DNA of 64,000 nt from Luteolibacter rhizosphaerae (GTDB lineage: Bacteria; Verrucomicrobiota; Verrucomicrobiia; Verrucomicrobiales; Akkermansiaceae): the NCBI RefSeq assembly GCF_025950095.1, contig NZ_JAPDDR010000008.1, positions 124,001-188,000 of the forward strand, written 5' to 3'. A program made the translations under genes and the position numbers. Positions 50,973-54,283 of this stretch are shown here, one piece after another; within the stretch, counting starts at the first letter, position 1; each line of letters begins with the position of its first letter. Under the pieces are notes generated by a model that saw nothing but the letters and a program-made list of their open reading frames with translations, searched no databases and was not told the DNA's origin.

Positions 50973-52898
50973 ATGAGCGACTTCCTGAAGCACGAATGCG
51001 GAATCGCTGCGGTGCGGCTCCGCAAACCGCTGGCGTATTACTACGACCGTTACGGCACCGCGCTGTGGGGCTTCCAGAAGCTCTTCCTCCTGATGGAGAA
51101 GCAGCACAACCGCGGCCAAGACGGCGTCGGCATCGGCTGCGCCAAGCTGAACATGCCGCTCGGCCAGCCCTACATTTTCCGCCGCCGCGATAGCGAGCGG
51201 GATGGTCTGGCCAACATCTTCCGCAAGGAGATGAAGTCCTACCACAAGATGGCGCGGAAGGGCATCCTGGATACCTCCAAGCCGGACAGCGTGAAGGCGC
51301 ACTACGATTTCGGCGGAGAGGTCCTCGTCGGTCACCTTCGCTACGGCACCTCCGGCGAGTTCGACGAAGGCTCCTGCCATCCCTACCTGCGCCGCAGTAA
51401 CTGGCCCACCCGCACGCTCATGGTCATGGGCAATTTCAACATGACCAATGCCGCGGAGCTGAACCAAGTGCTCGTCGAGCGCGGCCAGCACCCGGTCTTC
51501 GGCACGGATACGCAGACGGTGCTCGAGGAAATCGGCTTCCATCTCGATGAGGCCCACACCGACCTCTACCGCAAGCTGCGGGACGAAGGCGTGGATGGCC
51601 GCGACATGCCGGACCGCATCTCCTCGCAGCTCGATCTCGCCCGTATCGTCGGCGAATCCGCCCAGCCATGGGACGGCGGCTACTCGATCTGTGGCGTCGT
51701 CGGAAACGGCGACATGTTCGTGATGCGCGATCCGCGCGGCATCCGTCCCTGCCACATGCTGGTCACGGATGAAGTGATTGCTTTCGCCTCCGAGCGCGTG
51801 CCGCTCATGACGGTGTTCGAAGCGGATGCCTCCCAGGTGAAAGCCGTCGATCCCGGCAGCATCATCACCATCAAGTCGGACGGCACTTTCACCGATCAGC
51901 CCTTCTCTCCGCCGCAGAAATACACGCCCTGCTCCTTCGAGAAGATCTACTTCTCCCGCGGCAACGACCCGCTGATCTACCGCGAGCGCAAGGCCATGGG
52001 GGCTTCGCTCGTCCCGCAGATCATGGAGGCCATTGGCGGTTCCTTCGACAAGGCCGTCTTCTCCTTCATCCCGAACACCGCGGAAACCGCCTACTACGGC
52101 CTCATGGACGGCCTGCGTCTCTTCCGTCGTCAGGAGGTGCGCTCCGCCATCCTCGAAGCGCAGTCCAAGGGCGAGCTCACGCCGGAAGCGCTCGACGACT
52201 TGATCCTCCGCAATTGGCCGCGTGGCGAAAAGATCGCCCACAAGGACATCAAGATGCGGACCTTCATCGCACAGGAGAAGGGTCGCGATCAACTCGTCTC
52301 CCACGTCTACGACATCACCTACGGCGTCGTCCGTCCGGAGGACGCGCTCGTGGCCTTGGATGACTCGATTGTCCGCGGCACCACCCTCAAGAAGTCGATC
52401 CTCAAGATCCTAGCACGCACCTCGCCGCGGAAGATTGTCGTCTGCTCCACCGCCCCGCAGATCCGCTATCCGGACTGCTACGGCATCGACATGTCGGAGC
52501 TCGGCAAGTTCATCGCCTTCCAAGCCGCCGTGGCTCTCCATCGCCGCGCCGGTCGCCAAGCTCTGCTCGACCAGATCTACGAGGAATGTCGCGATGAACT
52601 GCGGAAGCCGCACGGCCAGATGGTCAACCGGGTGAAGCGTGTCTACGAAGCCTTCACGCCGGAAGAAATCTCCGCAGAGATCAGCCGCATGGTTTCGCCG
52701 GAGGATATCGATTGGGATGGCGAGGTGCAGGTCATCTTCCAAACCATCGAGGACCTCCACGCCTCGATCAAGGGCCCCTGCGGCGACTGGTATTTCACCG
52801 GCGACTATCCCACCGCGGGAGGCTATTCGATGGTCAATGCCGCCTATGTCCGTTGGTACGACGGAGTTGGCGGCCGCAGCTACGGCCTGCAACTCTGA
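50973..52898 (+). CDS. purF: Amidophosphoribosyltransferase, long form
   Basis: The 641-residue enzyme makes phosphoribosylamine from PRPP and glutamine, the first committed step of purine synthesis. Catalytic Cys9 (KHECGIAAV) would be exposed by removal of an eight-residue propeptide. Glutaminase motifs HNRGQDGVGIG, VGHLRYGTSG and GNFNMTNA follow. The phosphoribosyltransferase domain has the PRPP loop ALDDSIVRGTTLK. It is about 150 residues longer than E. coli PurF, with insertions in the glutaminase domain and a C-terminal extension. This long form is seen in Bacteroidota and related phyla. No [4Fe-4S] cysteine set was identified with confidence. Coupled with purM. Confidence 0.93.
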   Translation: MSDFLKHECGIAAVRLRKPLAYYYDRYGTALWGFQKLFLLMEKQHNRGQDGVGIGCAKLNMPLGQPYIFRRRDSERDGLANIFRKEMKSYHKMARKGILDTSKPDSVKAHYDFGGEVLVGHLRYGTSGEFDEGSCHPYLRRSNWPTRTLMVMGNFNMTNAAELNQVLVERGQHPVFGTDTQTVLEEIGFHLDEAHTDLYRKLRDEGVDGRDMPDRISSQLDLARIVGESAQPWDGGYSICGVVGNGDMFVMRDPRGIRPCHMLVTDEVIAFASERVPLMTVFEADASQVKAVDPGSIITIKSDGTFTDQPFSPPQKYTPCSFEKIYFSRGNDPLIYRERKAMGASLVPQIMEAIGGSFDKAVFSFIPNTAETAYYGLMDGLRLFRRQEVRSAILEAQSKGELTPEALDDLILRNWPRGEKIAHKDIKMRTFIAQEKGRDQLVSHVYDITYGVVRPEDALVALDDSIVRGTTLKKSILKILARTSPRKIVVCSTAPQIRYPDCYGIDMSELGKFIAFQAAVALHRRAGRQALLDQIYEECRDELRKPHGQMVNRVKRVYEAFTPEEISAEISRMVSPEDIDWDGEVQVIFQTIEDLHASIKGPCGDWYFTGDYPTAGGYSMVNAAYVRWYDGVGGRSYGLQL

Positions 52899-52961
52899 TC
52901 CCTTCGACGCGGCGCAACCGCCCTTTGGCATCTTTGTTCCTGCTCTTTCGGAGTCGTCGGG

Positions 52962-52985
52962 GAGCCGTGCCCGCAACAACGGCTC
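52962..52985. terminator. Possible terminator after purF
   Basis: GAGCCGT (52962-52968) pairs with ACGGCTC (52979-52985) around a 10-base loop, 63 bp after the purF stop. No clear T-tract follows, so factor-independent termination is uncertain. Confidence 0.4.
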
Positions 52986-53159
52986 TCAAAGCGCGCCGCG
53001 ATTCCTCTTGAGGAAGAAATTTTCGTGGATATTTCGCATTTCTAAATCACTGAAAACTAAGGGATCAGGCTCTCCCAATCATCGCCTTTCAAAAAATTTC
53101 CATAAAATTTGGAAATCCACCTGAGTCGATTGCGATTGGTCCAGTAATGACGAGCTTCC

Positions 53160-53646
53160 TCTCCAACGCAAACCTGACCGGCACGGACGTTCCGGGGGGT
53201 GCGCTCCGGGCTGAAAGGTTGCACGCTGGGTTGAATCTCGTCTTGGCACCGCTTGGGAGCGAAAGCTCCCCGGTGCCGACCATTTTCCAAATGCTGGCCC
53301 TGATGGGGGGAACGGTTGCCACACGCGAAGGTCGTGAAGCGAAAGAAGGCCGGGGGGCCTCCTTCGTGGATAGCCCGAGCAGGCACTGTCTGTCATGGAC
53401 CAGTCGAACGGGATCGGCCCACCAACGGCCGGGGGGCCTGTCAGGTGGACCGATCCCGATGATTTCCTGGTTGTCGGCTAATTAGTATTCAGGTGCTGCC
53501 AGGGTCCGGGGGGACCCTGGCGCGCTGAGGCCACACTGGAGAAAGTTCTCACACGCACACACACCTGCTCATGATGGGCCGGGACCGTTTAATCCGGGGG
53601 GATTAGCAGCGGTCCCGGCCCGCTTGCGTCTGCACCACCGCTTTTT
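53160..53646 (+). ncRNA. Candidate novel structured RNA with repeated CC-GGGG-GG hairpins
   Basis: The 815 bp between purF and the next gene contain no credible protein gene. After an AT-rich stretch (53000-53150) the sequence folds into consecutive hairpins. One has arms GGCACCG/CGGTGCC and GGGAGC-GAAA-GCTCCC (53245-53277), a GNRA tetraloop. Five end in CC-GGGG-GG: 53168-53222; 53340-53366; 53409-53458 (14 of 15 bp lower stem); 53499-53520 (9 bp, CCAGGGTCC/GGACCCTGG); and 53576-53621 (12-bp lower stem GGGCCGGGACCG/CGGTCCCGGCCC plus TAATCC/GGATTA). Two share the same internal loop shape: 2-3 bases left, 4-5 right. Stems differ in sequence but keep pairing. A sixth G6 run lies at 53305-53310. 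A CTTTTT tract (53640-53645) could end it. Strand is assumed from flanking genes. Confidence 0.6.
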
Positions 53647-53713
53647 CCAAAGTCTCGACATCGGAACCTCGGCAGGAGATTGGTTTCACGCGATTCTCCT
53701 CCCCCTTCGCACG

Positions 53714-54283
53714 ATGGATCTCCTCCTCCGCATCAAATGGCGTCCCGGCATCGGGGATGATAGCGCCTTGGGGTGGTTCACGGTCCTTGCCTACGCCGTC
53801 GCCGCCTGCCTCGCCCTTCTGGTGTGGAAGAAGGCCGCCATCGGCAGGAAGATCTGGTTCTGGGTGGGCCTGCTCATGGCGCTCCTTTGCCTGAACAAGC
53901 AGCTCGATCTCCAGTCCCTCTTCACCGATCTCGGTCGGGAGGTCGCGAATGCCGGCGGCTGGTACGGCCAACGCCGCGGGGTGCAGAAGTGGTTCGTGAT
54001 CGGCGTGATCCTCGGAGCTGCTGTCTTCGGGGCTTGGTTCGCCTGGCGCTTCCGGAATTTCCTCGTGCATCACAAGCTGCTCTCCCTCGGCCTGCTCTTC
54101 CTGCTCACCTTCATCGTCGTCCGAGCCATCTCCTTCCATCACGTCGATGTTTTCCTGAAGACGGAGTTCGCCGGGATCCGCATAAACGGCATCTTGGAGC
54201 TCGGCGGCATCTTCCTGATCGCCGCGGCCGCCATCCGTGAGCGGCTTTCGCAGATGAAATCCGCGCCGTCCTTGCGGCGATGA
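53714..54283 (+). CDS. Unrecognised polytopic membrane protein
   Basis: Starting at ATG 53714, the 189-residue protein has five hydrophobic segments (for example FTVLAYAVAACLALLVWKK, IWFWVGLLMALLCLN, WFVIGVILGAAVFGAWFAW, LLSLGLLFLLTFIVVRAIS). An outside loop has the motif LNKQLDLQSLF, and a SFHHVDVFLKTEF segment lies near the end. No family is assigned here. It follows the structured-RNA candidate by about 70-90 bp, and the PQQ dehydrogenase gene begins 72 bp after its stop. A longer start at 53624 would run into the last hairpin and lacks support. Confidence 0.65.
   Translation: MDLLLRIKWRPGIGDDSALGWFTVLAYAVAACLALLVWKKAAIGRKIWFWVGLLMALLCLNKQLDLQSLFTDLGREVANAGGWYGQRRGVQKWFVIGVILGAAVFGAWFAWRFRNFLVHHKLLSLGLLFLLTFIVVRAISFHHVDVFLKTEFAGIRINGILELGGIFLIAAAAIRERLSQMKSAPSLRR

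Follow-up and report, generated by a model that had tools for sequence, protein, structure and literature searches.

A Conserved Structured RNA With Repeated GGGG-Tipped Hairpins in Luteolibacter rhizosphaerae and Its Possible Link to a Two-Partner Secretion Locus

Organization of the Locus

The window, i.e., the entire 64,000-nt stretch of Luteolibacter rhizosphaerae DNA analyzed here, contains an open frame that we take to be purF from its sequence and, behind it, a promoter-like block, a structured RNA and an open frame that runs through this RNA (Table 1). The region had been described as gene-less in a previous reading of the sequence alone (the sequence-only reading), which is at odds with this frame of 112 codons. 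That reading likewise had no means of recognizing the conservation of the block, the second copy of the RNA or the locus with secretion and sigma-like genes.

Table 1. Features of the purF-downstream region (positions in the window).
Feature	Position	Strand	Description
purF (presumed), upstream neighbor of copy A	50973..52898	+	Open frame; protein relatives in 26/27 genomes searched
Promoter-like block	53109..53138	+	TTGGAAATC 53109-53117, N14, GCGATTG 53132-53138
Structured RNA, ~480 nt	53145..53630	+	14-copy alignment; 5' and 3' ends both putative
Open frame, 112 codons	53147..53485	+	ATG 8 nt behind GCGATTG; candidate for translation
5' domain	53150..53244	+	Basal helices 53150-53161 with 53230-53244; inner helix 53172-53180 with 53211-53219
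Apex hairpin 1, inside 5' domain	53188-53203	+	CCGGGGGG 53192-53199, identical in 14/14 copies
GAAA-loop hairpin	53245..53277	+	Two helices, 100% and 92.9% of cells paired
Long-range helices	53293..53404	+	53293-53297 with 53400-53404; 53302-53310 (holds sixth G6 run) with 53386-53394
Apex hairpin 2	53348..53359	+	CCGGGGGG 53350-53357; compensatory change in 3/4 pairs
Apex hairpin 3, with internal loop	53409..53458	+	CCGGGGGG 53429-53436; compensatory changes at 9/15 pairs
Apex hairpin 4	53492..53526	+	CCGGGGGG 53506-53513; compensatory changes at 10/14 pairs
Apex hairpin 5, terminator-like	53576..53621	+	CCGGGGGG 53594-53601; one helix of 14-copy alignment

Five hairpins that share one apex on differing stems, as first noticed in the sequence-only reading, are present on the + strand between 53192 and 53601, with their CCGGGGGG octamers at 53192, 53350, 53429, 53506, and 53594. 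Two of the stems quoted at that time were recovered as given, namely 12 of 12 pairs (53576-53587 with 53610-53621) and 14 of 15 pairs (53409-53423 with 53444-53458); the third, quoted as nine of nine, actually comprises ten of ten pairs (53498-53507 with 53512-53521). The proposed hairpin with a GAAA loop was located as well; according to the alignments, some relatives carry GCAA or UUCG at this place. The sixth G6 run (53305-53310) does not form an apex; it is a strand of a conserved long-range helix and its partner is a conserved GUCUGUC-like stretch.

Counting both strands of the 64-kb window, seven CCGGGGGG octamers were found, the other two being located on the minus strand. Whole-window shuffles contained 8.4 octamers on average and 75 of 100 shuffles reached seven; thus, the unusual property is the clustering of the octamers and their stems, and not their total. 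Among 23 family sequences (one strand), GGGG tetraloops cap 35 of 74 hairpins whose stems pair perfectly over 6 bp or more, and in all 35 the closing pair is C-G. The flanks show such loops in 7 of 1366 hairpins (406,036 nt from 19 loci, both strands, one tpsA leader included). When the window and 30 loci, some of them overlapping, were searched for YCGGGGGR hairpins with at least five further perfect pairs, all hits but one lay behind the block and inside such elements. The one remaining hairpin, in L142, was rejected as a family element, as its surrounding sequence reads like a tpsB coding region.

Conserved Structure and Strand

Folding of positions 53120-53660 yielded -263.4 kcal/mol for the + strand, compared to a shuffle mean of -225.7 (z -6.3), and a z of -7.3 was obtained for the minus strand. 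Since both strands fold below their shuffles, the strand is not given by single-sequence folding. An alignment of 14 full-length copies (579 columns, 91 pairs) has 94.5% of its cells paired; the compensatory count excluded L018, L022, L023, and three truncated copies (L014, L024, and L026). Compensatory changes on both sides were identified for 41 of the 91 pairs, compared to a shuffle mean of 19.2, and none of 500 shuffles was as high. These shuffles leave relatedness uncorrected; a control that retains it, in which the partners were slid by one to three columns, gave 10-17 compensatory pairs instead of 41. The existence of a conserved structured RNA at this locus is near certain. The earlier proposal that structure is kept while the sequence drifts is borne out, and conservation and covariation, on which that proposal had been made to depend, were both found among the relatives. 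G-U pairs outnumber A-C mismatches in the alignment (137 cells vs. 13), and RNAalifold prefers the + strand (-277) to the minus strand (-235). Together, these two observations identify the + strand as the RNA.

Across the copies, the tips are mostly C-CGGGGG-G or U-CGGGGG-A, those of hairpins 4 and 5 being more variable. The outer tip pair of hairpin 3 covaries in the 14 copies (C-G in eight, U-A in five, and U-G in one). Either CCGGGGGG or UCGGGGGA forms tip 2 in 11 of 14 copies and tip 3 in 12 of 14, hence the loops are kept where the stems change. Hairpin 2 is missing from L015 and L018. A T-rich stretch follows hairpin 5 in many relatives and is poor in the window copy, in which this hairpin was not called by a terminator scan of the window.

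In agreement with its earlier description as an undescribed candidate, Rfam 15 yielded no match at the gathering cut-off in the 64-kb window. Lax settings applied to positions 52900-53800 returned nothing credible (best E 0.26), and five relative loci gave a single match below the cut-off (E 0.89). The OLE, GOLLD, and ROOL classes, which are included among the Rfam models, were not matched in the window or the region. One sub-threshold match to the CcsR1 sRNA (RF02791, CCUCCUCCC motif) exists at 53571-53668; however, it lies on the minus strand, reaches 16.9 bits compared to a cut-off of 65.3, and concerns a model of 83 positions instead of an RNA of about 480 nt. A literature search covering titles and the openings of abstracts, in sources other than subscription journals and bioRxiv, returned no description of such an RNA.

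OLE, GOLLD, and ROOL are reported to form RNA-only complexes (PMC12286853). Like them, the RNA described here is large and elaborate. Its size, fold and kept loops would suit a scaffold or oligomer RNA of this type, whose GGGG tips join in G-quartets or in other contacts between hairpins or molecules. In contrast to these classes, it is tied to a secretion locus (see below) and has no Rfam match in the window. The loops, moreover, are not self-complementary. A scaffold function is accordingly regarded as very unlikely.

An Open Frame Through the RNA

The start codon of the frame is located 7-9 nt behind the block across the copies. All 18 copies that begin with ATGACG lack a stop codon within 300 nt (20 sequences were given, of which L018 and L024 are without ATGACG), and the frame is also open in L111 and L113 and closed in L124. 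Shuffling predicts 0.7-2.0 stops per copy, so that a closed frame would be anticipated in some lineages. Moreover, codon scoring ranks frame 0 above the other two forward frames in 16 of 18 copies, and in four tpsA leaders (see below) an ATG similarly lies 8-9 nt downstream of the block and opens frames of 48-98 codons. Because the frame is open, the RNA has to be weighed as the message of a small, fast-evolving protein of about 100-128 aa that is incidentally heavily structured. With an ATG 7-9 nt behind a -10-like element, this message may be leaderless.

The pattern of change argues against this explanation. Substitutions show no excess at the third position (0.356/0.378/0.341 by codon position for pairs of 17 copies, in-frame columns only) and are likewise flat among four distant copies, which lowers the protein reading. 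The frame 0 codon scores are near 0, between those of coding (+0.22) and off-frame sequence (-0.36), and 227 of 779 pairwise gap runs inside the frame are multiples of three. The ATG is lost in L018 and in L124, the first codons lie inside the basal helix, and the frame product has no match in Pfam or NCBIfam. A protein message thus appears improbable, and we read the element as an RNA first, which may in addition be translated.

Copies of the RNA and Their Genomic Context

A BLAST search of 97 genomes identified matches in 11, including the genome of origin, and all of these belong to the same genus. When the 5' part of 15 copies was turned into a covariance model, this model matched 10 of 18 genomes of the genus, with two copies in each of eight genomes and one in each of two. 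Within the order, 10 of 386 genomes are matched, one of them in another genus. Most genomes with the RNA contain two diverged copies, A and B. Copy A is located behind purF. In 10 loci, distributed over two genera, copy B lies immediately 3' of a ShlB/FhaC-type gene; the one neighboring protein that was domain-tested, from G318 of the other genus, shows ShlB (1.4e-13) and POTRA_2. A synteny search of the 1.5 kb behind purF in 19 loci revealed the block in G007 only, whose contig ends in the RNA, and no locus with more than one YCGGGGGR octamer; G004, with a contig that starts inside purF, was left out. Matches in the viral L088 and the Fontibacillus L085 were rejected, as they are identical to each other and carry no apex octamer.

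Further free RNAs were identified at new places of the block in L111, L113, and L124. The L124 copy (G380) is a decaying free RNA that has lost its ATG, has a closed frame and retains fewer tips. In G005, copy L014 (C80) looks nearly identical to L005 (C1) over about 350 nt and then continues into unrelated sequence; it looks like a truncated or recombined copy.

Several contigs end inside or beside copies of the RNA, i.e., L012, L020, L024, and L026 in G007 and L006 and L017 in G010, as expected if copies are locally identical, which suggests gene conversion between copies A and B. In addition, a gene for a small membrane protein (MDLLLRIKWRP-like) lies 3' of the window copy, of L006, L007, and L011, and of L008, L010, and L013. 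It is found behind copy A in some genomes and behind copy B in others, as if the flanks were exchanged by recombination between the copies, and for this reason the membrane protein was rejected as a partner of the RNA. The contig ends in G007 and G010 and the switching neighbor could also be attributed to an element acting at the DNA level, with palindromic repeats serving recombination or slippage. However, the tenfold excess of G-U over A-C fits an RNA of one strand, and the block is present on one side only; an explanation at the DNA level thus seems hardly credible.

The Promoter-Like Block and the Sigma-Like Gene

All full copies read carry TTGGAAATC-N13..15-GCGATTG upstream or a one-base variant of it (L005 and L014 of G005, L007 of G009). 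In the genome of origin, TTTGGAAATC-N{10,20}-GCGATTG occurs exactly twice, both times at a copy of the RNA. TTGGAAATC-N{13,15}-GCGATTG was detected in 21 of 260 family genomes, with reversed control columns at zero. This search returned 33 places, of which six (L125-L129 and L135) were judged to be chance matches. A scan of positions 52900-53750 with the sigma-70 consensus found no promoter. The block may act as a promoter of another type, as the putative target of a sigma-like factor encoded in the locus described below.

This locus was read in G318 (L145:2437-12021). Four proteins are encoded on one strand, namely one of 192 aa that contains a single hydrophobic stretch, one of 308 aa, a subtilase, and a TPR-CHAT protein. 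The opposite strand carries the block, a leader, tpsA, tpsB, and copy B of the RNA. The TPR-CHAT protein (CHAT 9.4e-49) exhibits, by eye, a signal-like N-terminus and a hydrophobic C-terminus. The counterpart locus in the genome of origin is L139 (C4). The exoprotein-like protein of the locus is short and has an SFFGMRGG-like tail. Overall, the locus looks like a cell-surface signaling system that joins two-partner secretion and a CHAT protease.

For the 308-aa protein, a divergent ECF sigma factor is the probable, albeit weak, assignment. Three of six sigma-like proteins matched Sigma70_r2 weakly, with a best Pfam E of 0.024, below the cut-off. Foldseek with a model of the sigma-like protein (pLDDT 67.5) placed sigma factors on top (best E 0.08). 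VIA-align, whose list is likewise dominated at the top by sigma factors, gave a Z of 9.9 for E. coli sigma-E (rmsd 24.2 over 131) and of 9.1 for SigW (rmsd 3.2 over 83 residues), values that helical models can reach by chance. When solved structures were searched with the sigma-like profile, the matches listed were headed by designed TIM barrels and included no sigma factor. The 192-aa neighbor would then be a candidate anti-sigma factor. The sigma-like gene is present in 39 of 260 family genomes and in 17 of the 18 that have the RNA or the block before tpsA (G000, G002, G003, G005-G017, G318, and G380), a co-occurrence that is confounded by kinship. The exception is G380, an assembly of 81% completeness in which no sigma-like gene was found.

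The combination of genes resembles ECF sigma/anti-sigma signaling and CRISPR type III-E, in which a TPR-CHAT protease is reported to cleave Csx30 and thereby relieve the inhibition of the ECF-like sigma factor CASP-sigma (PMC10028731). The locus described here likewise joins TPR-CHAT, sigma-like, and anti-sigma-like genes; its TPR-CHAT protein differs in the signal-like N-terminus and hydrophobic C-terminus.

Leaders and Coding Starts of tpsA

The name tpsA is used for exoprotein-like genes on the basis of their look, their place near a ShlB/FhaC gene and a signal-like N-terminus; one tpsA protein tested had no match in Pfam or NCBIfam. The block precedes tpsA in five related genomes, and similar G-rich hairpin tips follow it in four of the five. 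Such a block with G-rich hairpins lies 5' of tpsA in G318, G002, and G017, and a variant block in G013. The G318 leader carries three YCGGGGGR tips, the G002 leader three together with two UGGGGGGA tips, the G017 leader one YCGGGGGR and one UGGGGGGA tip, and the G013 leader one plus one. In G014, the block before tpsA is not followed by any tips. Similarly, four loci read in genus g16 exhibit a related block (TTGGAAATC, 15 nt, CGGTTGG) that either precedes a tpsA-like gene or coincides with its start, with no tips behind it. Consequently, the hairpins are not needed for the pairing of the sigma-like gene with tpsA. A screen for GGGG loops on at least six perfect pairs in 19 further loci with a sigma-like gene (L180-L197 and L199) returned no arrays and a single CCGGGGGG hairpin in L197; as the tips of L190 (G013), later read by eye, escaped it, the screen is too strict to count as a negative.

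G318, G002, and G017 also contain the free RNA. In the two-copy clade, three tpsA starts were read and show neither leader nor block, so that the putative cis target and decoy were observed together only in G318, G002, and G017.

The same evidence bears on the idea that the RNA is, or formerly was, a cis attenuator of tpsA, acting on transcription or translation through a regulated last hairpin, with the free copies as duplicated leaders. The block and the hairpins are common to the tpsA leaders, and the final element of many free RNAs is an apex hairpin that looks like a terminator. A last hairpin of this kind is also present in the G002, G017, and G013 leaders, where no T-run follows immediately. 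On the other hand, the free copies retain their pairs by compensatory change, and the RNA occurs twice per genome in the very clade whose three tpsA starts have no leader. Attenuation in cis is thus rather improbable.

The start of tpsA is itself conserved in the two-copy clade, where ten genes keep a UUCCCCCUUGCCGGG-like sequence beyond what the protein needs. Codon 7 is CCC for eight of eight prolines (usage 0.29), codon 8 is CTT in seven of ten genes (usage 0.13), and codon 10 is GGG for eight of nine glycines (usage 0.17). CCCCC was found by eye within the first 36 nt of seven of the ten tpsA genes, compared to 4 of 38 long frames of the window. Part of this conservation is accounted for by a small hairpin, GCCGG-N7-CCGGC. 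In L165 (G000), tpsA codons 7-13 show synonymous conservation of CCCCCUUGCCGGG-N6-CCGG together with a small conserved hairpin.

Discussion

The presence of similar G-rich tips both on the leader of a likely target and on free RNAs behind one type of block suggests a decoy circuit. Combining the computed features, i.e., the conserved structure and its strand, the repeated tip, the copy number, the shared block and the linkage, we tentatively favor, with somewhat less than even confidence, a folded regulatory RNA, about 480 nt long, that has a dedicated promoter and sets tpsA expression as a multivalent decoy or antisense RNA. In this model, the RNA would be transcribed from the ECF-sigma-type block when the sigma factor is active and would present up to five hairpins, the stems of which drift while the tip remains mostly Y-C-GGGG-G-R. 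Each GGGG tip would offer the same docking site to a single partner, which could be an RNA-binding protein or else the C-rich beginning of the tpsA mRNA. Similar tips would act in cis in the tpsA leader and in trans on the free copies, which would behave like CsrB/CsrC. Transcription, the role of the block as promoter of the sigma factor, the partner and the direction of regulation are the inferred parts of the model. Pairing of the GGGG tips with the C-run of tpsA offers a testable alternative to a protein partner. The open frame through the RNA is unaccounted for by the decoy model.

CsrB/CsrC and RsmX/Y/Z are decoy RNAs of CsrA that consist of many hairpins with one repeated GGA loop on unrelated stems and occur in more than one copy per genome. 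The comparison with CsrB and RsmZ drawn in the sequence-only reading is apt as an analogy, since a decoy model predicts similar tips in the leader of the target, as seen for tpsA in relatives. The Csr system itself is unlikely to be involved, because searches of the genome of origin, a 98% complete assembly, detected neither CsrA (PF02599; 3 of 14 controls positive) nor Hfq. By analogy, the CsrB-type decoys would be the nearest known system in working: both display a repeated identical loop on varied stems, more than one copy per genome, and a proposed target leader with similar tips. They differ in the loop, which is GGA in the CsrB type and here GGGG closed by C-G, the commonest loop (35/74). 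In addition, the RNA described here has extra long-range helices, a different type of proposed promoter and no Rfam match.

A bolder version of the decoy model proposes a new RNA class, in which the sigma-type block and the array of GGGG tips form a portable module that occurs as cis leader of a secreted-protein gene and as free, duplicated trans copies. Its loops would be recognized in an undescribed way: by a new GGGG-binding protein, through stacking of four tips into a G-quartet within one molecule, or by base pairing with the C5 run at the start of tpsA. This possibility is a speculative one and, in our estimate, unlikely to hold in full.

The RNA has no match in Rfam 15 and comes from a phylum whose RNA regulation is scarcely covered in the literature found. 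It exists in few copies, and a single locus holds both its proposed target and its proposed sigma factor. Should the loops dock a single partner, multivalent RNA decoys would have arisen by an independent route in a genome in which neither CsrA nor Hfq was detected. If true, this would lead to a new RNA-binding partner and would link loci with TPR-CHAT and sigma-like genes to RNA control.
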